DNA of 64,000 nt from Pseudotabrizicola sediminis (lineage in GTDB: Bacteria; Pseudomonadota; Alphaproteobacteria; Rhodobacterales; Rhodobacteraceae): positions 1-64,000 of the forward strand of contig NZ_RPEM01000001.1 of the NCBI RefSeq assembly GCF_004745575.1, written 5' to 3'. Shown here in pieces: positions 45,390-54,555 of this stretch (positions are counted from its first letter, which is position 1; every line of letters starts with the position of its first letter). The notes below the pieces were generated by a model, which saw nothing but the letters and a program-made list of their open reading frames with translations, did no database searches and had not been told where the DNA came from. The position numbers were made by a program, and so were the translations under genes.

Positions 45390-45698
45390 GGGGCAACTCC
45401 GCTTGTGAAAATCCCTCGCCTGCCTAGCGGGCAAGCGCCGCAAAGGGAAGGGGCGTTGCCGGGAGGGGACTGTAGAAGGATGATTGGGGGTGGAGCGGGT
45501 GAAGGGCGACCGGAGACAAAATCGAACCGGGATGCTCTGCCGCATTTTCCTTCATTCTCAATAAGTTAAGCCAGCTTGGCCTTCCGGTGGGTTTTCACCG
45601 TGTGTGCCTGACGTGCTGTCAGTGTGTGCCGCAACTTCTGATGCAGCTCCTTTTGCGTTTTAGAGTAGAGCGCCCGTTATCCGCAAGACGTTTTTGAT
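45390..45698. other. Junction region of chromosome and element
   Basis: Holds the ridA upstream region, the left 16-bp attachment copy (45491-45506), then about 190 bp of element DNA with no ORF, tRNA or clear promoter. The sequence becomes markedly more AT-rich after about 45530. Confidence 0.5.
45491..45506. repeat. attL, 16-bp attachment repeat
   Basis: TGGAGCGGGTGAAGGG, identical to the last 16 bases (reverse strand, including CCA) of the tRNA-Gly gene at the right end. Bases flanking it on the two sides differ from those at 52517-52532, as expected at an integration junction. Confidence 0.85.
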
Positions 45699-46199
45699 TT
45701 ACAGCTCTGTCCCGACGACCAAAAAGCCGAAAGAAATATCCCGCCCCTCCGGCCCGAACCCTGTATTCAACGAAAAGCCATTTGGTTTCTTTTCACTCAC
45801 ATGCGCTTGTCCTTCCGGCAACTCGATCGACACAAAATAGTGCTTCTTTACTGGCTCTGCGAAGTTCACAGCCAATTTTCCAATTCCGTGGTCGGTAACG
45901 CTGCTAATTCCTTTGGCGTGTTCTATGGCGAGTTTTCCGGATGCAAAATTTACGAACCCATGGGCTATGACGCGGGTTTTGCTCAGGTCAAGAATTTGAC
46001 TTTCCAGCAGGGTTCCGCGCCTTATTTGCTCGTTCAGTTGTTCTGTAACTTCATCGCCCCACCTAACATGGTCCTTTTCCGCCGCGCTCGGATGCGTCAC
46101 CCTGTAGAAACTTGCTGCAAATGCAGTAAGGGAAAATGCCTGAGCAATCGTTTCTATCAGCTTTCTTGTCGGGCCTTCTTTTTTTGGCTCTTTGATCAT
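45699..46199 (-). CDS. Element left-end cargo protein, tail-fibre-like C-terminus
   Basis: 166 residues (192 from the further ATG at 46277). GC is about half, well below the flanks. Residues about 15-35 (LIETIAQAFSLTAFAASFYRV) are hydrophobic or amphipathic, and a helical linker follows. The last 80 residues are beta-rich, with HGFVNFASGKLAIEHAKGISSV cut at its core VTDHGIGKLAVNF and FVSIELPEG. That cadence is typical of C-terminal knob domains in phage tail-fibre proteins. It faces away from the integrase at the outer end, where cargo or moron genes commonly lie. No ribosome site is convincing. Function unknown. Confidence 0.5.
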   Translation of the reverse strand: MIKEPKKEGPTRKLIETIAQAFSLTAFAASFYRVTHPSAAEKDHVRWGDEVTEQLNEQIRRGTLLESQILDLSKTRVIAHGFVNFASGKLAIEHAKGISSVTDHGIGKLAVNFAEPVKKHYFVSIELPEGQAHVSEKKPNGFSLNTGFGPEGRDISFGFLVVGTEL

Positions 46200-46505
46200 T
46201 TCACTGGCCCACGTTCTTCGATCCACTCCATGCAATAGACCAGTCGTCTTTGCCAAATGTCCACATAAAATGACCAAAAAATCTGAAGCCCTGACCTCAC
46301 CAGGTGAAGCCGCGCGTTACCCCCGGTGGGGTCGCCTTCTCCACCGTCCGGGGCACCCCATACCGCGCCCCTGCCGCCCCTTGGTCCACCTTCCGGGACC
46401 GGGTGACGCCCCAACTTCCCACGCGATTAACACTCACAACGTTCCTTGACGTTTGACAAATGGTCCTGCTAGATGCCCTCACAGTCCACCAGAGGGGGCA
46501 CAGCC
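46200..46505. other. Divergent intergenic region with recombinase promoter
   Basis: Upstream region of both the left-end cargo gene and the serine recombinase. It has several GC-rich inverted segments (46300-46410) and, near the recombinase, TTGACG (46446-46451) and TAGATG (46470-46475) with an 18-bp spacer, a credible sigma-70 promoter. GAGGGGG before ATG 46506 is the ribosome site. Minus-strand ORFs here are unconvincing. Confidence 0.5.
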
Positions 46506-47171
46506 ATGAAGCAATTCGTCATCTATCGCAGGGTAAGCACAGAGGATCAGGGACGCTCAGGCCTTGGCCTAGAGGCCCAGACACGGGACATAGACCTGTA
46601 TCTGAACAACTATGCCGAGACCCCCTTTGAGATCGCCGGGGCCTTCCTTGACGTGCTCTCTGGCCGGGACAATGACCGCCCGGAGTTGACCAAGGCCCTA
46701 GACCTGTGCCGCAGGACGGGGGCGGAGTTGCTGGTGGCGAAGCTGGACCGCCTGTCCCGCCGCGTGTCCTTCATCGCGGCAATCATGGATGACCCCAAGG
46801 TGCGCCTCCGGGTGGCCTCTATGCCCAACGCGGACAAGTTTCAGTTGCACATCTACGCCGCTCTTGCGGAACAGGAACGGGACTTCATCTCCCTGCGGAC
46901 CAAGGCAGCACTGGCAGAGGCGAAGGCCAGAGGCCAGAAGCTAGGCGGGATGCGGGACAAGACCGGAAAGCGCAATGAGGCTGTCCAGAGGGGCGCACAG
47001 GCGTTTGCCCAGAAGTTGAAGCCCATTGTGGAACCTTTGCGGACCTCTGGGGCCACACTGGCGGATATCGCGGGGGCACTGGACGGGGCAGGGATCAGCA
47101 CCGCACGGGGCGGTAAGTGGACCCCTACGCAGGTTAAGCGGGTGCTGGAGAGGATTGCATTGGGCGCATAG
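46506..47171 (+). CDS. Serine recombinase (resolvase/invertase family)
   Basis: 221-residue serine recombinase. The catalytic domain (about 1-135) has the nucleophile S11 in IYRRVSTEDQ, the segment LEAQTRDID, and the essential arginines R82 and R85 in LDRLSRRVSF. A C-terminal helix-turn-helix (about 175-221, TLADIAGALDGAGISTARGGKWTP cut: the IAGALDGAGI core and QVKRVLERI) should bind DNA. Small type, without the long zinc-ribbon domain of large serine integrases, so resolution, inversion or promoter switching is likelier than primary integration. Has its own promoter, and a terminator follows. Confidence 0.85.
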   Translation: MKQFVIYRRVSTEDQGRSGLGLEAQTRDIDLYLNNYAETPFEIAGAFLDVLSGRDNDRPELTKALDLCRRTGAELLVAKLDRLSRRVSFIAAIMDDPKVRLRVASMPNADKFQLHIYAALAEQERDFISLRTKAALAEAKARGQKLGGMRDKTGKRNEAVQRGAQAFAQKLKPIVEPLRTSGATLADIAGALDGAGISTARGGKWTPTQVKRVLERIALGA

Positions 47172-47225
47172 CTGATGTGTTAGCCATGATGTGGCTGCAT
47201 GTCTTCCTATCTGTATTGTTGACGT

Positions 47226-47255
47226 GGCCTCCGGGGATCACCTTGGAGGCCTTTT
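47226..47255 (+). terminator. Terminator of the serine recombinase
   Basis: GGCCTCC pairs with GGAGGCC around GGGGATCACCTT, then TTTT. A similar hairpin with the same GATCACCT loop core occurs at 48961-48987. Confidence 0.75.
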
Positions 47256-47345
47256 GGTATACCCCGTGAACTTCCTTGGGTAATAACGCCTCTAACTGTC
47301 ACTCTGATGGATAGTTAGTCTGCCGTAAGTCTATATCCGATCTAG

Positions 47346-47364
47346 ACCTAAGTTGAACTTAGGT
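47346..47364. promoter_or_regulatory. 19-bp palindrome
   Basis: ACCTAAGTTGAACTTAGGT is a perfect palindrome about a central G. Size and symmetry fit a dimeric regulator operator or a recombinase dimer site. It lies 175 bp after the serine recombinase gene and 205 bp before the next ORF. Confidence 0.5.
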
Positions 47365-47568
47365 TAATCAAATATTTCATCCCCATACAGGCACCATCGG
47401 ACCCCCTCAACGCACCTCCAGCCAACCCCACAACGCCCATCTAGTCCCCATACGGGAACCACCTTTCGACACCCCCGGAGATAGTCCCCACAAGGGGAGT
47501 ATATCGTGATTTGTCAGATGCTTCCGGCATGTGCTTCATCCTCCGTGTGAACCACGAAAGGACACATC

Positions 47569-47892
47569 ATGACCAAGCAACTGACCTCCATCTCCGCCCA
47601 CCTGTGCCACGCCGGGGAGATCATAGACGCAATCGCAGAGGCCACCGTGAAGGCCACCCCAGACGCCCCTACAGTCCTCGCCCACATCGACGCGGCCCAG
47701 TCCTTCGTGACCGCCGCAGACGCCCTGTATGAGGCCGCAGAGAGGGTCGCCTTGGGTCAGCCTGTGGACACCCCGGAGTTGCTCTTTGCGTTGCGGGTGG
47801 CGGGCGTGAAGGCCGCAGAAGGTATCGACTTGCTGGCAGGGAAGCCGGTGGCGGGGAATGTGACGGTCTTCCCGATCACTGGCACCCACTGA
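47569..47892 (+). CDS. Element protein of unknown function, 107 aa
   Basis: Small acidic helical protein (MTKQLTSISAHLCHAGEIID at the start). Alternating Ala, Asp and Glu-rich helices suggest a three-helix bundle. AAAGGA precedes the ATG. A short Pro/Val C-terminal tail (NVTVFPITGTH) follows. No TM segment, signal or recognised family. First of four colinear unknown genes; it probably shares a transcript with the next, 96 bp away. Confidence 0.6.
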   Translation: MTKQLTSISAHLCHAGEIIDAIAEATVKATPDAPTVLAHIDAAQSFVTAADALYEAAERVALGQPVDTPELLFALRVAGVKAAEGIDLLAGKPVAGNVTVFPITGTH

Positions 47893-47920
47893 CGGGCGAT
47901 GCTGGCGGGGTCGGCCAAAA

Positions 47921-47935
47921 ACCCCTTCGCTTAGG
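47921..47935. repeat. 15-bp direct repeat, copy 1
   Basis: ACCCCTTCGCTTAGG, intergenic, with an identical copy at 50873-50887. It shares CTTAGG with the 19-bp palindrome. Confidence 0.5.
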
Positions 47936-47988
47936 ACATTCCGTCCATCTCCATCCCCATCATTCCAATCCAAAGAGGAACAACGATC

Positions 47989-48921
47989 ATGACACAATTC
48001 TACAATGCACCCGCCGAAGGCATCTCCCCAGAACAACTGTCAGCTTGGCAGAACCAGCTTGAACAGGCCACGGCGAAGACCTCTCCCACGGCTGGCATCC
48101 GCCCCACGGCATCCGTCGCCAAGGTGAACCAAGTGACCATCCAGAACGGGCAAGTCACCTCCCTCACGTCTAGCGCCAAGACTGCCTCCGGCTCCAAGAC
48201 TGTCTATGCCACTCCGACCGAACTGGGCTTCATCCCGTTGCCGGGTGGAGGCAAGACGACCGTGGAAGCTGCAAAGGCTGGGGGTCTCATTCCGCATACT
48301 TGGAAAGAGGGCGACTCCCTCCCTTTTGACCAAGCCCCTGCCGCGAAAGAGGCACAAGACGGGGCACCCAAGGACACCCAAGACAAGGCACCAGACACCA
48401 CCCATGCAGCCCACTTGGCGAAACTCGCCGGGGAAGTTCTGCGGGGAGTGGATCAGGCCCACGGGCCGCAGGTGACAGATGCCCTTGTGGATCAGGTGGC
48501 CGACAACGGCGACCCAGACTCGATCCTTGACCAACTGCCCGCTGGGGTCTCACCCACCCATGTCAAGCAGGTGATGGCGGGATACATCGCACAGGCCAAT
48601 AACATGCTGTCTACTGTGGGGGCCTCTGTCCCCTTGCTGGAACAGATGCTGGATGCCGATGAGCTGCGGATTGCCCGCCGTGCCACGCTGGCAAATGCCC
48701 CGGATGAGATGACCCGCCTTGGTCAGATGGCCGTGGATCGTCTCGCCCAGATGCCCACCACGGACCCGGAGACATTCCGCGAAATGGTGGAAGGGATGGA
48801 CCCCAAGGCCCGCAAGATGATCCGCCATGACCGAAACTCCGGGCAATGGATCGTGTCCCTTCCGGGGCACCCTGACATGGCTTACGGGGCGGCTGTCCGC
48901 CTTGGCCTTGTGAAGGTCTAA
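47989..48921 (+). CDS. Element protein of unknown function, 310 aa
   Basis: The largest unknown in the element. N-terminal 75 residues are polar and Thr/Ser/Gln-rich; a loop segment PLPGGGKTTVEAAK (about residues 85-98) superficially resembles a P-loop but lacks a proper Walker A context. A Lys/Asp/Ala-rich linker (about 110-140) follows, then a mostly helical C-terminal half with repeated VDQ and DPETF segments and a short C-terminal beta stretch. Length and disorder would fit a virion scaffold or internal protein, but nothing is diagnostic. AGGAACAACGAT precedes the ATG, as for the Rha gene. A terminator follows. Confidence 0.6.
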   Translation: MTQFYNAPAEGISPEQLSAWQNQLEQATAKTSPTAGIRPTASVAKVNQVTIQNGQVTSLTSSAKTASGSKTVYATPTELGFIPLPGGGKTTVEAAKAGGLIPHTWKEGDSLPFDQAPAAKEAQDGAPKDTQDKAPDTTHAAHLAKLAGEVLRGVDQAHGPQVTDALVDQVADNGDPDSILDQLPAGVSPTHVKQVMAGYIAQANNMLSTVGASVPLLEQMLDADELRIARRATLANAPDEMTRLGQMAVDRLAQMPTTDPETFREMVEGMDPKARKMIRHDRNSGQWIVSLPGHPDMAYGAAVRLGLVKV

Positions 48922-48960
48922 GCGACCCTTCCCGACTCCGTCTAGCTACCCTTCTACAGC

Positions 48961-48987
48961 CCTCCGAGATCACCTCGGGGGGCCTTT
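48961..48987 (+). terminator. Terminator after the 310-aa element gene
   Basis: CCTCCGAG pairs with CTCGGGGG (one wobble) around ATCAC, followed by GGCCTTTTT. It is related in loop sequence to the terminator at 47226-47255, so the element may reuse one terminator type. Confidence 0.7.
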
Positions 48988-49036
48988 TTCGTTCAACCCG
49001 CCGCGCCCCATGCGGCCACTCAGAGGAAACCCGACA

Positions 49037-49633
49037 ATGAAACTGAAATTCACCTCCGTCCCCCAGTCCGAGATTGACCGCCGTATTGAGAACCTGCGCA
49101 GCTACACGGCCAAAGCCGCAGATGCAGTGATTGCCGACATGGTAGACGCGCACAACCCGATTACCGATGCCATGGGCACCGATGCCGAAGTGACGGCACG
49201 GGCTGTCGTGGATATGGTCTCCGCCGCCATGAAGGCAGAGAAGATCGTGGCCTCAAAGGTTGCCGCCGATGCCGTGGCAGACCTCTACAGCGCCGCCACA
49301 GACAAGCCCCTGCCTCTCGCAAGGATCATCGCACACCGCATCCCAAGGCCGACCCACAATGACCGTCCGGGGCGCGTAGGATCATTCTGCAAGTGGCGGT
49401 GCGAGACAGAGGAAGGCGTTGTGCTGGTGGCTAGCACCGATTACCCGTTGGCTGATAGTGCCGCTGTGCTGTTGATCCTGCACGGGCTGCCGGACAATAC
49501 ACCAGTCACCCTGCGCCATTCTGACAAGGGCCACGATCACTACCGCCCGATGAAGCTGGGGACTGCCGCTGCCCACGGGATCAAGCGTTTGGAAGACCGC
49601 ACCATGCTCCGCCTCTCGCGTGTGGCCGCATGA
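49037..49633 (+). CDS. Element protein of unknown function, 198 aa
   Basis: 198 residues. The first half is helical and Ala-rich (EIDRRIENLRSYTAKAADAV); the second half is mixed alpha/beta with GVVLVASTDYPLADSAAVLLI and paired His (HSDKGHDHY). No TM or signal. AGAGGAAAC precedes the ATG at 49037; an ATG at 49010 is unsupported. The next gene overlaps it by four bases (ATGA), so the two products are probably made together. No recognised family. Confidence 0.6.
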   Translation: MKLKFTSVPQSEIDRRIENLRSYTAKAADAVIADMVDAHNPITDAMGTDAEVTARAVVDMVSAAMKAEKIVASKVAADAVADLYSAATDKPLPLARIIAHRIPRPTHNDRPGRVGSFCKWRCETEEGVVLVASTDYPLADSAAVLLILHGLPDNTPVTLRHSDKGHDHYRPMKLGTAAAHGIKRLEDRTMLRLSRVAA

Positions 49634-49854
49634 GTGACCCCTACAGGCTCTTTGCGATGCAGCCCGTGCATGTCCGGGGCAAGGGGGAGGTGGCCCCCAA
49701 GGGTCATGTCTCCGATGCACAGCGCGACATGATGGAAGCTGCCCAGCGCGGGGCAGGGGCACGACTGCCTCTCCAAAGTTTGGAGGGTCATTCAGACGCG
49801 CCCGGCACACCCCCAGACCCTTGGTCAAAGGAAGCGTGGGGCGTCCTGCGCTAA
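49630..49854 (+). CDS. Element protein of unknown function, 74 aa
   Basis: 74-residue protein translationally coupled to the preceding gene (ATGA overlap). Composition is Gly/Pro/Ala/Ser-rich and probably disordered, with a short helix (SDAQRDMMEAAQRGA) and a Trp-rich end (DPWSKEAWGVLR). A partner peptide of the 198-aa protein is plausible from the coupling. No recognised family. Confidence 0.5.
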   Translation: MSDPYRLFAMQPVHVRGKGEVAPKGHVSDAQRDMMEAAQRGAGARLPLQSLEGHSDAPGTPPDPWSKEAWGVLR

Positions 49855-50214
49855 ACCCTCACACACCCACCGGAGACCCCTTAGCGGGCCTCTGGTGACT
49901 CTCCCACGGCCCCTCCGATGCTGCACCCTGCCGACCCCCGCGCGGGTTTCGTTTCGTCGTCCTTCCTCGACCCGCAAGGGGTGCGATGGGGATCACGGCG
50001 GGGTGCAGCTTCCGAGGGGCTGGGGCGTGTCTGCCTGAATTTCAGGTGGACATGTTTCCTCACCATTCTTCCGCATGGCGTCCCTGTGCGCCCCATGGGA
50101 GTCTCCTTTCGGCCCCTGTGGGTGCCCGTGGGAAGGCTGCCGGTGGCGTCATGCCGAGGAATGATCCTCAGCGGCGCAAGACGCGCCTGATTTCCCACAT
50201 CGAAAGGAACAACG
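49855..50214. other. Leader region of the Rha-type gene
   Basis: 360 bp with no supported ORF. A hairpin with paired CACC/GGTG and GAG/CTC arms lies at 49868-49897, and ACCCCCGCGCGGGTTT at 49936-49951 looks like a weak terminator. A ribosome site AAAGGAAC precedes ATG 50215. A promoter for the Rha gene is expected but not recognised. Confidence 0.45.
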
Positions 50215-50712
50215 ATGAACAACTTGCCTACCACCACCACCAGCAAAGCCCCTGCGCCGCTTCCGGGAACCATCCCAGCAATCTGCCACGGGGTGCCCTT
50301 TATGACCTCTCTGGCGATTGCCGAGATGACCGGGAAGCGCCACGACAACGTGAAACGGGATGTTGAACGGGAACTGACAAGCCTAGGCGAAGACGCCCTC
50401 AAATTTGAGGCGGTCTATCTTGCTGGCAACGGGGAACGCCGTCCCTGCTACGCCCTCCCCGGTGAATATCTGCTTTTCATCGCATCCGCCTATGACGCCA
50501 AGCTCCGGATGCAGATCATCCGGCATTGGTCCGCCTTGAACAACGGGACCGCTGCCCCTGCGCCTGATGCTGCCAATGTCTTTGTCCAGCGCCTGATCTC
50601 CGGGGGCATCGAAGGACGCCGGGAACAGCTACGGAAGGACGAAACAATCGCCCGCGCCTTCCGGGAACCGAACACACGGCGGGCATACCTAGCCTTCGCT
50701 GGCAAGCCGTAG
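50215..50712 (+). CDS. Rha-family phage regulatory protein
   Basis: 165-residue phage-type regulator of the pRha family, known from lambdoid and P2-like phages, where Rha proteins affect lytic growth. The core motif is MTGKRHDNVKRDVERE (helix, residues about 40-55) followed by FEAVYLAGNGERRPCYALP and YLLFIASAYDAKLRMQ, matching the family pattern 'KRHDNVxRDI...Y.L...G'. The C-terminal helix ends in FAGKP. This is the best evidence that the element derives from a phage. AAAGGAACAACG precedes the ATG. Confidence 0.85.
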   Translation: MNNLPTTTTSKAPAPLPGTIPAICHGVPFMTSLAIAEMTGKRHDNVKRDVERELTSLGEDALKFEAVYLAGNGERRPCYALPGEYLLFIASAYDAKLRMQIIRHWSALNNGTAAPAPDAANVFVQRLISGGIEGRREQLRKDETIARAFREPNTRRAYLAFAGKP

Positions 50713-50994
50713 CGCCCCCGCAGAGTCCCGCACAGGGCATCTGACGTAAATCCCACACCCCCACAGGGGAAGCCTTGCAGGGCCTCTCCTGTCTACCCTG
50801 TGGCCTCTCTGGTGATATTGCCTGTAGGGAGGGAGTAGGGAGTGGATGCACACCAGGGGGCATGTATTGATTACCCCTTCGCTTAGGTGGGGGCCCCCCT
50901 TTACATATATAAGACATGTATAAAGGGATGCTCAATGTGATGCCCTTGGGCTGTCCTTGATGTGCCAACACTCCCGACACCCTCCCTCCCAAAT
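50713..50994. other. Gap between rha and integrase 3' ends
   Basis: Two convergent genes end here. CCACAGGG and CCCTGTGG (about 50759-50806) can pair into a long hairpin, and AT-rich TTTACATATATAAGACATG (near 50901) is a weak promoter-like stretch. The second copy of the 15-bp repeat is at 50873-50887. Confidence 0.45.
50873..50887. repeat. 15-bp direct repeat, copy 2
   Basis: ACCCCTTCGCTTAGG, identical to 47921-47935. It lies between the rha and integrase 3' ends. A regulator or recombinase accessory site is possible. Confidence 0.5.
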
Positions 50995-52430
50995 TCACCC
51001 TTGGTCTACACCATCAGGGGCACCATTTGATAACCCAAAGGCCCGCTTCATGGCCCTTGTCGTGACACGCAACTTCGCTGTGTCGCCACCATAGACCCGA
51101 TCACCAATCCCGCCCAGCGCGTGACCAAGGATCAGGTTTTGGTCTAGGGACACCACCTCTGCCAGCATGAGCCGATCTTTCATGTTGTGCCGCAAGGAAT
51201 GGACAACGTGCTTGGGGTTTGTCGTCACCCTCCGCACCTGTTTCATCAACGCAGCAGAGGCCGCATCGCTGCCCCTGTCTCGCCCATAATCAGGGAACAG
51301 CATTGTGCACCCCACGGCCAGTTTAAGGGCCTCTTTGGCTGCATCCAGTGCGTCCCCAACAAGGGGCACCGCCCGCCTAGAGGTTTCAGTTTTCAGACTG
51401 CGGACTTCGTTCCAAGTCACGCGGATATGCGGAAAGGGGCCGGACACGTCCACGTCATCCACCGTAAGCCCCGTGACCTCTGCCAGACGGCACCCTGTGC
51501 CTTCCAAGATGCGCCAAACCAACTGCAATGACGGCTTAGACGCCGAAAGCACCTGTTGCCGCACCGCTGCCAGAACATCGGACGGGAAGGGGTCGCGCTT
51601 CTCTCCCGCCTTCTGACCTCTGCGCCTCGCTGCCTTCGCCACTGGCAGATCGTGAAAGGGGTTCTCTGTGGTCTTGTGCAAGTCAAACTCTTTGAGACCA
51701 AAGTTGACCACGGCAGAGAGGACCGACAACTCCCGGCCCACGGTTGATGCACTCACCTTCTCACCGATGCCCTTGCCTGTGACCCTCACCCGGTCAAGCA
51801 TTTCGTCCCGAACCTTCCGGGCATCCTCTCTGGTGATGGACGGCAATTCGGGGTCTCTGCCGATCACGGCAATCGCCGCATCAACCACCCTGTTGGCGAA
51901 GCCTACCACCCGGCTATCCGTGGAAGGATCATCCACCCGCACATGCTCTTTCAGATACAGCTTCCGGGCATCCCCAAGGGTTGCGAGGGGGCCTTGTATC
52001 TCTCCAGCCCATGGCGAAGCAGGTTGATCGTATGGCGCTCCACCGGGGGCACCCCTTGTGGCTCATAGTCATACCCGTGGGGATACGCCTCTGCGATGCT
52101 GTCCGCTGTCAATTCAAGGTCTCTGTCGCTGGCACCCGCTGCCACCAGATCAGCCCGACGCCGCAGCGCCTCCGCATAGGCTTCCCGCTCCGTTGCCTTG
52201 GCACTGGACGCCTTCTCTGACCGCACCCGGCCTAGCTTGGCCTCTGCAATCTCTTTCTCGACTTCGGCATGATATCGGGGATAGGCCGCAAGGGCCTCTC
52301 GCTCCGACTCACCCAACTTTCGCTTGAACTCCCGCTTGGTGATGATCGCGGAAACGTCCTTGGGCACTCTCCGGCGATACTGCCAACTGCCCGATTTGGT
52401 GCGCTCAACGTATTGCAAAACAAGTCCCAT
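50995..52430 (-). pseudogene. Tyrosine integrase, interrupted by a frameshift
   Basis: Two frames together encode a full integrase of about 480 residues. The first part (52430 to 51951, MGLVLQYVERTKSGSWQYRRRVP) is the N-terminal and arm-binding region; it runs off frame at a five-C run (minus strand GGCCCCCTCG, about 51986-51990) and stops after QPLGMPGSCI. In the other frame LATLGDARKLYLKEH continues directly into the second part (51942 to 50995), which has the catalytic residues R152, H248, R251, H274 and Y284 by its own numbering. One base is missing in the C-run. It may be a true pseudogene, a sequencing error or programmed shifting. Adjacent to attR and tRNA-Gly. Confidence 0.85.
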
Positions 52431-52516
52431 GTGTGCCCCGTGTGTGCTGTAATGTGCACCGGAGAGAACCGCAAGGGCTTGAATTACTGAGAAAAAAGGC
52501 TGCCCAGAAGGGCAAA

Positions 52517-52532
52517 TGGAGCGGGTGAAGGG
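52517..52532. repeat. attR, 16-bp attachment repeat
   Basis: TGGAGCGGGTGAAGGG, the reverse complement of the tRNA-Gly 3' end including the encoded CCA. Identical to 45491-45506. Confidence 0.85.
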
Positions 52533-52590
52533 AATCGAACCCTCGTCATCAGCTTGGGAAGCTGCTTCTCTACCATTGAGATACACCCGC
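52517..52590 (-). tRNA. tRNA-Gly(CCC)
   Basis: 74-nt tRNA on the minus strand with the acceptor stem GCGGGTG, D-arm TCTC/GAGA, anticodon loop TTCCCAA (anticodon CCC at 52556-52558), T-arm with GTTCGAT, and an encoded 3' CCA. The 27-43 pair is G-A, as in other alphaproteobacterial copies. It remains intact at the element junction because the element's repeat restores the 3' end. Confidence 0.95.
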
Positions 52591-52680: not shown

Positions 52681-53400
52681 CTATGCCTCGTCGCCTTCGG
52701 CTTCCGTCGCCACCGATGCATCGCCGCCCAGGGCATTGTAGCGGCGGTCGGCCAGCCATTGCAGGCGTTTGGCCTGGGTCAGCAGCACCCGGCGCAGGCC
52801 GCCCTGTACCTTACGCTCGGCGATCACCTGCGCCAGCCGTGACAGGATCAGCGCGCGCCGCGCAGTGCGGAAATCGGGGTGCGAGCGGATTTTGTGGACA
52901 TGGTCCGACACGATCCGCCAGCGCAGCGACGGCGGGGCGGTGACAGCAACCACCGGCAGCGGCGGGTCCTTTTCGTTCAGCACGGCCTTGAAGGTGCTGT
53001 TGGCAACGGCGGTCTGATAGACCAGATGTTCCAACGCGTTCAGATGCGCCCGCGCGCCCGTGTCGGCCTTCGGGGTCCGCTCGAACTGGGGCAGGGGCCA
53101 GACCTCGATCTCGAACACCTCGAACGGGTCGAGAACCGACATGGCCACCGCATCGGTGCGCTGGTTGGTCAGGTGGCGGCGGATACGGGTGCTGATCTTT
53201 TCCTTGGTCTGGCCGACATAGATCGGCTCGCCGTCATAGTCGAAAAACGCATAGACGCCCCAGGTGAAGGCCCCGACCGGGCGGCTGCGGCCTGCGACAG
53301 GGTCGTGAAACGGGGCCGACAGGAACTTTGCCAGATTGGCCCGAAGATCTTCGGTCTCGAACGGAGGGAAGTTGGTGTCATCGGGGTTTCGGTCGGTCAT
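52681..53400 (-). CDS. GIY-YIG nuclease, probable restriction enzyme
   Basis: 239 residues. A GIY-YIG nuclease domain spans about 45-145: GVY (Y50), IYVGQTKEK (Y61), RIRRH (R72-R74), catalytic ALEHLV (E124), and a late Asn in AVANSTFKAVLN. A helical Arg/Leu-rich C-terminal region (about 155-239) may bind DNA. It starts nine bases after the C5 methyltransferase stop, so it is probably the restriction partner. Known type II GIY-YIG enzymes are Eco29kI and Hpy188I; the sequence is not recognisably close to either. Target unknown. Confidence 0.75.
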   Translation of the reverse strand: MTDRNPDDTNFPPFETEDLRANLAKFLSAPFHDPVAGRSRPVGAFTWGVYAFFDYDGEPIYVGQTKEKISTRIRRHLTNQRTDAVAMSVLDPFEVFEIEVWPLPQFERTPKADTGARAHLNALEHLVYQTAVANSTFKAVLNEKDPPLPVVAVTAPPSLRWRIVSDHVHKIRSHPDFRTARRALILSRLAQVIAERKVQGGLRRVLLTQAKRLQWLADRRYNALGGDASVATEAEGDEA

Positions 53401-53409
53401 TGCGGTTGC

Positions 53410-54555
53410 TTATGCCACCAAGGCCAGTCGGTTGCGCCGCAAAACCGGTTCAAACACCGCATCCGCCAGATGCCGGACCACGGGAACCGCCACGCCGTCG
53501 CCCGCCAGTTTATAGGCGTCATTGTAACGCTCTGGCAGGATGAACGTATCTGGCAGGCCCATCAGGCGCACAGCCTCACGCGGGGACAAGAGGCGCGAGC
53601 GGACGCTGTCGCCTTCGACCACCATGATGGTCTGGCGGCTGGACCCGCCCGACGGGGTGCGCAGGCAGCCTGCCACATCGTCAAACCTGACCTCGGCGCG
53701 CTGGCGCTTCACGCCTGCCGCATCGGGCCGGGTGCGGCGGTAGACGGTGCCGACCTTGCGCGTGCCAAGCTGCTTTGCGGCGTCCACCTTGCCGCGGTTC
53801 AGATCGGTCATCAGCGACAGCAGATAATCGGTTTCTGCCGCCGTATGCCAGATCACGCCCTGTGGCTGCTCTTCGATCACGTCAGACAGCGCCAGATTGC
53901 GCGCGGCGGGCACCGGCAGGTTCCACCAGAGCCAACGCGACCGGGCGGCACTGGACAGCAGCGCCTGACCCTCGATCAGGGCAGGGGGATGCCAGACCGA
54001 AGACGGCGCATCTTGTATGCTCCCCTCGGGCAGGCGCAGATCGCCGCGCACGCCGATGATGAAAAATCGCGGGCGCGACTGGGGCAGGAAATGCACCGCA
54101 TCGACCACCACCGCACCAAAGCGGTAACCAAGGCCGGAAAACGCGGCGGCCAGTGTGGCAAAATCGCGGCCACCATTGCTGGTAATGGCACCATACACAT
54201 TCTCGACCGCCACGATCTTGGGCCCGCGCCCATCGGCATTCAGATCGCGCACCAATTGCCAGAACGGCTTGAACATGCCCGAGCGTTTGCCCGCCAGCCC
54301 CGCCCCCTTGCCCGCCAGCGACAGATCCTGACAGGGAAAAGACGCCCAGACCAGATCGGCGGTGCCCGGAATATCGGCACAGGTAAGGGTTGCAACATCT
54401 TGCAGCACCAGTTCCGCGCCGCCGTGGTGGTTGGCCCGGTAGCTGTGCGCCTTTTTCGGATCAATGTCATTGGCGAACAGGCAAGACCACGCAGGTCCAA
54501 GGCCAAAGCCCGCCATGCCGCCGCCTGCGAAGAAATCGTAGTAAGTGTGCGGCAT
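53410..54555 (-). CDS. DNA (cytosine-5) methyltransferase
   Basis: 381-residue C5 methylase. The catalytic Cys is C75 in the SFPCQDLSLAG motif IV, Glu118 in VAVENVYG is motif VI, and AGGGMAGFGLG (motif I) binds AdoMet. SRPRFFIIGVRGDLRLP (motif VIII region) and the C-terminal LMGLPDTFILPERYNDAYKLAGDGVAVPV (cut: RYNDAYKLAGDGVAVP is motifs IX-X) close the fold. The variable target domain lies at about 185-290. The nuclease gene follows by nine bases, implying a cytosine-methylating type II restriction-modification system just outside the integrated element. Confidence 0.93.
   Translation of the reverse strand: MPHTYYDFFAGGGMAGFGLGPAWSCLFANDIDPKKAHSYRANHHGGAELVLQDVATLTCADIPGTADLVWASFPCQDLSLAGKGAGLAGKRSGMFKPFWQLVRDLNADGRGPKIVAVENVYGAITSNGGRDFATLAAAFSGLGYRFGAVVVDAVHFLPQSRPRFFIIGVRGDLRLPEGSIQDAPSSVWHPPALIEGQALLSSAARSRWLWWNLPVPAARNLALSDVIEEQPQGVIWHTAAETDYLLSLMTDLNRGKVDAAKQLGTRKVGTVYRRTRPDAAGVKRQRAEVRFDDVAGCLRTPSGGSSRQTIMVVEGDSVRSRLLSPREAVRLMGLPDTFILPERYNDAYKLAGDGVAVPVVRHLADAVFEPVLRRNRLALVA

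Follow-up and report, generated by a model that had tools for sequence, protein, structure and literature searches.

A 7-kb element at a tRNA-Gly gene of Pseudotabrizicola sediminis as a probable member of a family of small, helper-dependent tRNA islands in the Rhodobacteraceae

The first 64,000 nucleotides of contig NZ_RPEM01000001.1 of Pseudotabrizicola sediminis (assembly GCF_004745575.1), here called the window, contain a 7-kb element at positions 45491 to 52532 which is integrated at a tRNA-Gly gene. We consider it likely that this element belongs to a family of small (4 to 12 kb), tRNA-targeted integrative elements of the Rhodobacteraceae that are not self-transmissible and depend on a helper. 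The best reading is that of helper-dependent tRNA islands with defence cargo, which would be a new family of a known kind of island. The window copy encodes a tyrosine integrase, a small serine recombinase, a Rha regulator and five proteins without assigned function; an earlier note on this DNA had counted four. Its statement that terminase, capsid, portal, replication and transfer genes are absent agrees with our scans, as no such family was detected among the open reading frames (ORFs) of the window using Pfam and PHROGs. The serine recombinase and Rha named in that note were both recovered by their Pfam matches (PF00239 and PF09669).

Both borders of the element are marked by a direct repeat of 16 bp, TGGAGCGGGTGAAGGG. 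The right copy (52517 to 52532, plus strand) forms the 3' end of the target gene, an intact tRNA-Gly(CCC) located on the minus strand (52517 to 52590). The left copy (45491 to 45506, plus strand) on the attL side represents the displaced tRNA-Gly 3' end. The chance of a 16-bp match within 10 kb is about 2e-6, and independent relatives of the element show a tRNA-end repeat of the same kind with a length of 14 to 17 (20) bp. Removal of 7026 bp, comprising the interior and one repeat, joined the flanks to a sequence corresponding to the uninterrupted site of the sister genome G013. In this genome the same ridA-side flank continues into TGGAGCGGGTGAAGGGAATCGAACCC without an insert, and the repeat and the tRNA are identical. 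Because of this agreement the borders are, as judged by sequence comparison, real integration junctions, and their exact placement in the earlier note stands. A chance repeat without any element would be compatible with the shortness of the repeat, and nothing else speaks for it; it is refuted by the empty site in G013 and by the same junctions in other elements. The predicted attP of the window element reads ...AGAAGGGCAAA-TGGAGCGGGTGAAGGG-CGACCGGAGAC..., and an Rfam scan revealed nothing above threshold except the tRNA.

The comparison of this locus between related genomes, which the earlier note had recommended, yielded another occupant in addition to the empty site: Pseudotabrizicola alkalilacus (G002) contains a second element of the family at the same tRNA-Gly, with an integrase of 80% identity and different cargo. 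Genome G003 (contig C7, locus L028, about 860 to 2937) carries an insert of about 2 kb between a ridA-like gene and the same tRNA-Gly. This insert is unlike the window element and contains a 289-residue ORF but no integrase; due to the presence of such a different insert the tRNA-Gly appears to be an integration hotspot in the genus. Directly behind the tRNA-Gly element of G002 a further tyrosine integrase is located beside a tRNA-Ser (L029, 15438 to 17023), for which stacked elements or a remnant are candidate explanations.

To define the family we used DNA searches in the genus and then searched a two-row integrase alignment against one-per-species genomes; element ends were located by the tRNA-end repeat together with the conserved far arm. 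Besides the element in G002, a family element was found in G013 at tRNA-Gly(TCC) and a degraded one in Phaeovulum veldkampii (G354). The one-per-species genomes contained 23 loci with the family integrase, all of them in Rhodobacteraceae or close kin (Rhodobacter, Rhodovulum, Paracoccus, Tabrizicola, Haematobacter, Puniceibacterium, Defluviimonas, Fuscibacter and others). At these loci the integrase starts near the 3' end of a tRNA for Gly-CCC, Gly-TCC, Asn-GTT, Leu-CAG or Thr-CGT, with a distance of about 87 bp for full-length copies. Both ends could be found for 12 elements including the window copy, all from Rhodobacteraceae, with sizes of 4.0 (G354), 4.7, 5.6, 7.0 (window), 7.4, 7.5, 7.5, 7.7, 8.0, 9.4, 10.9 and 12.1 kb. 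The 11 others are located at tRNA-Gly(CCC), Gly(TCC), Asn or Leu and show the same architecture. The literature that was searched, with partial coverage, contains no description of these elements, and the family is apparently undescribed.

All 12 elements contain a small serine recombinase and a DUF6538 integrase gene or its remnant, which is separated from the tRNA by a short spacer; attP arms of the recombinase type are also common to them. The integrase is apparently of full length in nine of them. The serine recombinases fall into several divergent subtypes; this looks as though the gene had been exchanged while its function was retained. Downstream of the integrase a Rha or Bro-N/ANT antirepressor is present in 7 of the 12 and an RNase H in three, one of which also has Bro-N. 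In none of the 12 could genes for replication, capsid, packaging or transfer be identified. The arms are rich in the motif GTGTGY, which occurs over the 12 elements with a density of 31 per kb in the tRNA-side arm, 17 per kb in the far arm and 0.57 per kb in the interior. Heterobivalent tyrosine integrases use arm-type sites, and arms of this composition are what such an integrase would need. In the window element the tRNA-side arm, which is also the integrase upstream region, comprises the 86 bp from the integrase start to the repeat (52431 to 52516, plus strand) and contains GTGTGY repeats. The far arm (45507 to 45640, plus strand) includes a conserved CGACCGGGGACAAAATC.AACC block, a TTCTCAATAA box and GTGTGTGCCTGACGTGCTGTCAGTGTGTGCC, with arm-type repeats around a palindrome, and shows 70 to 86% identity in G002, G354 and G013. 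Among 395 genomes the exact att-arm motif was detected only in G000 and G354.

Several comparisons indicate that the family has crossed genera. The synonymous divergence (dS) between the window genome and G354 is 1.02 for the chromosomal gene pgi, but 0.17 for the serine recombinase and 0.31 for the N-terminal part of the integrase. Across genera, the similarity of the element genes far exceeds that of pgi, and hence the family moves. The C-terminal part of the integrase has a dS of about 1.07, which differs from that of the N-terminal part, so that the elements are also mosaic. In agreement with transfer between genera, the branching of the integrase tree follows the tRNA target (Asn/Leu versus Gly) more than the host, three Pseudotabrizicola-type copies are placed in two positions, and a single strain, Rhodobacter capsulatus DSM 1710, contains three family integrases. 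The recombinases are under purifying selection with ratios of nonsynonymous to synonymous divergence (dN/dS) of 0.11 to 0.23.

The integrase of the window copy consists of two ORFs in different frames, with one base missing at about 51986/51987 compared with the copies of G354 and G002. The N-terminal part (51951 to 52430, minus strand; PF20172, DUF6538, E 4e-7) ends after the frameshift and shows 94% amino acid identity to the G354 copy as far as the lesion; the C-terminal part (50995 to 51942, minus strand; PF00589, E 2.5e-8) contains the catalytic domain. The earlier note had listed one tyrosine integrase and had missed this split. Both parts show dN/dS values of 0.11 to 0.14 versus the relatives, and the reading frame is open except at the lesion, which points to a recent loss or to a sequencing error. 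A programmed frameshift was judged unlikely because the intact relatives have the whole gene in a single frame. With its integrase split in this way the window copy probably cannot excise by itself. The earlier proposal of a recent or maintained unit therefore holds only by half: the borders are clean, but the copy's own recombinase is lost. A clean integration would have been followed by the deletion of one base, which probably fixes the element in place; it might still move if a related integrase acts in trans.

The elements differ in two variable slots, one in the interior and one located between serine recombinase and far end. G002 carries an MmeI-like type IIG restriction-modification system, L060 an HNH restriction-like nuclease and L052 a split helicase that matches PDC-S28, a candidate defence family. 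A trypsin-like protease is present in L053 and L056, the latter matching PDC-S45; a leucine-rich repeat (LRR) protein (L050) and an Excalibur protein (L067) are among the other occupants. Most of the variable-slot genes are, as far as their sequences indicate, candidate antiviral cargo. A similar lipoprotein-like gene occupies the far slot in two genera, Puniceibacterium (L055, 14856 to 15290) and Phaeovulum (G354, L025, 2921 to 3154). In the window element the slot nearest the far end is occupied by P1 (45699 to 46277, minus strand; at most 192 residues). Its C-terminus matches the phage tail-fibre family phrog_11355 weakly (E 0.0011), its predicted model is of low confidence (pLDDT 52) with a C-terminal beta domain, and phage and plasmid searches gave no relative. 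From the position of the slot one may guess that P1 is a defence gene; a PADLOC search with the window ORFs gave no defence hit.

The protein P4 (47989 to 48921, plus strand; 310 residues) is conserved within the family. It is present in full length (about 310 residues) in 5 of the 12 elements and as a fragment in G354, and the full-length copies in L056, L067, L070 and L072 are 39 to 49% identical. Searches with P4 revealed no Pfam family above the cutoff and no phage, IMG/VR, PDB or fold match. The predicted structure has a pLDDT of 64, with values of about 80 to 90 for a C-terminal helical domain, and gave no Foldseek match in BFVD or PDB. Across 394 genera of the bacterial family a firm relative was detected only in G354. 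A colinear gene in L050 was considered as a distant P4, but was not counted due to an hhalign probability of 4.6%. Conservation extends to a non-coding block of about 180 bp (46284 to 46460), which contains GC-rich inverted repeats and is located upstream of the serine recombinase gene. The block is 72 to 90% identical in G002, G354 and G013 although the flanking genes differ, and it is recognisable in three further elements. Candidate functions are a divergent promoter, a recombinase site, a replication origin or an origin of transfer (oriT). An RNA received no firm support, as only two pairs show changes on both sides.

The serine recombinase itself (46506 to 47171, plus strand; 221 residues, resolvase/invertase type; PF00239, E 9.1e-26) is intact and shows 94.5% amino acid identity and a dN/dS of 0.23 versus the G354 copy. 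The Rha/antirepressor-type phage regulator (50215 to 50712, plus strand; 165 residues; PF09669, E 5.3e-12) matches the anti-repressor family phrog_63 (E 8.9e-14) and is 55 to 62% identical to L059; relatives of it occur in phages and in IMG/VR. Between these two genes and in addition to P4, three further proteins without assigned function are encoded on the plus strand. P3 (47569 to 47892; 107 residues) has a homologue of 59% in the G002 element, and a supposed relationship to L070_11 was dismissed after BLASTP. P5 (49037 to 49633; 198 residues) is represented by a fragment in the G354 element and gave no match in the search of genome contigs. P6 (49630 to 49854; 74 residues) has relatives in G354 and L056 and is linked via L070 to L052. 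Upstream of P3 a region with TCCCC-N4-GGGGA-like palindromes (47360 to 47520) is conserved in the G002 element; a role of these palindromes as iterons or operators was rejected, as the frequency of the motif in the window is not above chance. Across the tRNA and outside the element, the minus strand encodes a GIY-YIG protein (52681 to 53400) and then a C5 cytosine methyltransferase (53410 to 54555), a possible nuclease/methylase pair.

In the mechanism that we propose, the DUF6538 integrase, which is transcribed away from the tRNA, would recombine an attP core of about 14 to 16 bp with the tRNA 3' end. The core would be flanked on both sides by GTGTGY arm-type repeats, and judging from the comparison integration would leave the tRNA intact. 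The backbone would consist of the serine recombinase near the far end, an antirepressor (Rha or Bro-N/ANT) or RNase H and often P4, with interchangeable genes, many of them anti-phage-like, in the interior and between serine recombinase and far end. As replication or transfer machinery could not be recognised among the genes of the elements, we infer that these move by means of a helper. Phage packaging would be the most plausible route; oriT-based transfer, generalized transduction or a gene transfer agent would be less likely. The serine recombinase may resolve multimers of the excised form. Several points weigh against this reading. Excision, circle and transfer are unobserved. With the patterns used, the family is absent from IMG/VR except for Rha, and phage matches were obtained neither for the element DNA nor for P1 or P4. 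The gene caller was crude and missed genes, and absences rest on the listed ORFs and the family scans. Furthermore, a defensive role is not obvious for the LRR, Excalibur and lipoprotein-like cargo, and no function has been assigned to P1, the cargo of the window element.

A strict phage satellite is a narrower reading that we regard as possible, but hold only tentatively. After induction of or infection by a helper the integrase would excise the element, which would be packaged in helper virions; Rha or Bro-N may interfere with or derepress the regulation of the helper, and P4 may redirect packaging. The antirepressor-family genes in 7 of the 12 complete elements, a defence cargo as in known satellites and a size within the satellite range are consistent with this idea, as is the similar I55 island of Pseudomonas, a proven jumbo-phage satellite with a type IIG system (PMC12595487). 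On the other hand, the scans of the window ORFs gave no evidence for primase/AlpA, terS, capsid-remodelling genes or cos/pac sites, and IMG/VR and GenBank phage searches were negative for integrase, P4 and att arm, with Rha relatives being found in IMG/VR. A helper, a packaging signal, a replication gene or a virion-derived contig was not found in the database searches. It is rather doubtful that the elements form a new satellite or helper-packaged family of the Rhodobacteraceae in which antirepressors and P4 replace AlpA, primase and capsid-remodelling genes and the serine recombinase acts on the excised form. We consider it improbable that the conserved block at 46284 to 46460 serves as the transfer origin for a resident conjugative element, which would make the element a non-canonical integrative and mobilizable element (IME) without relaxase. 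The conservation of the block between elements with different adjacent genes would fit, and relaxase-free IMEs are known (PMC5704250), but the block is weakly detectable in several members, plasmid searches gave no convincing match, and its site upstream of the recombinase would equally suit a promoter or a recombination site. The relaxase or type IV secretion system of an integrative and conjugative element or a canonical IME was absent from the window ORF scans.

Descent from a prophage stripped of virion and replication genes is more improbable still. The integrase and Rha are phage-like, and two loci of R. capsulatus DSM 1710 with terminase or portal genes close by constitute the strongest evidence for a phage connection. 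In L058 an intact family integrase and Bro-N/ANT are found about 7 kb from a split terminase, which lies beside remnants of another integrase. In L065 the family integrase is truncated at about residue 308 and is continued by genes for portal, protease and terminase, with a second integrase at a tRNA-Arg marking their end. Because the family integrase is truncated, and the second integrase and the tRNA-Arg belong to the neighbouring remnant, L065 does not appear to be a parent prophage; we read both loci as neighbouring prophage debris, which has its own integrase remnants. At L058 (14520 to 16588), near the family integrase, a DUF5131 gene and a protein with a GMT-like winged helix-turn-helix domain are neighbours of a DNA methylase and the split terminase. 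The same small architecture in 12 elements, the conserved arms, the shared P4/P6 and serine recombinase, recombinase dN/dS values of 0.11 to 0.23 and the absence of P4 from phage collections also argue against a remnant, and in the window ORF scans the terminase, portal, capsid, tail and replication genes of a temperate prophage were lacking. The earlier note had regarded the same genes inside a full prophage as evidence against an independent element; no complete element with virion genes or within a demonstrated prophage was found. Among its three options the new minimal integrative element fits best, as its architecture recurs in 11 other complete elements, and the eroded prophage is disfavoured by purifying selection and by the conservation of the small size and of the attP arms.

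By anatomy the family is closest to the I55 group of Pseudomonas islands and to similar tRNA/tmRNA islands. The I55/I44/I23-type islands have a tmRNA site, direct repeats, a tyrosine integrase, defence cargo that includes type IIG restriction-modification and no transfer genes, and I55 is carried between cells by a jumbo phage as a satellite (PMC12595487). The window element likewise is inserted with direct repeats at a tRNA 3' end, has its tyrosine integrase (though frameshifted) at the tRNA end and lacks autonomous transfer genes; defence-like cargo such as a type IIG system occurs in its relatives, and the window copy itself is without a PADLOC hit. Unlike these islands, the family comprises 4 to 12 kb in Rhodobacteraceae with a DUF6538 integrase, a universal small serine recombinase and a backbone of P4 and Rha/Bro-N; I55 is larger than usual satellites, transfer is proven only for I55, and the likeness is one of description. 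PICMI satellites of Vibrionaceae, the prototype of which is located by fis, require alpA and primase together with int (PMC10803314). They resemble the window element as minimal integrative elements with an integrase, a regulator, few unknown genes and no capsid genes, but its ORFs include neither alpA nor primase (Pfam, PHROGs) and its site is a tRNA, which excludes it from their definition. Tycheposons and VEIMEs use tRNA sites and tyrosine recombinases. These small integrative elements of marine bacteria are proposed phage satellites (PMC11389934); they live in other hosts and were compared by description. Relaxase-free IMEs such as MGIVflInd1 are integrase islands without their own relaxase or type IV secretion system (PMC5704250), as is the window element, which could by this analogy be a relaxase-free mobilizable island; it differs in that its conserved block is only an oriT candidate without plasmid match, and no conjugative helper is known.

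Taken together, the comparisons describe a coherent minimal mobile family. Its ends are exact, the att arms are conserved, the backbone is constant, and the slots exchange their content of antiviral genes, known ones or candidates. The bacteria that carry it are noted for gene transfer agents. New defence genes could be sought among the slot occupants, P1 included. As intact members are available in culturable strains, e.g. R. capsulatus DSM 1710, the family would make it practicable to test by which route an island moves that has no transfer genes.

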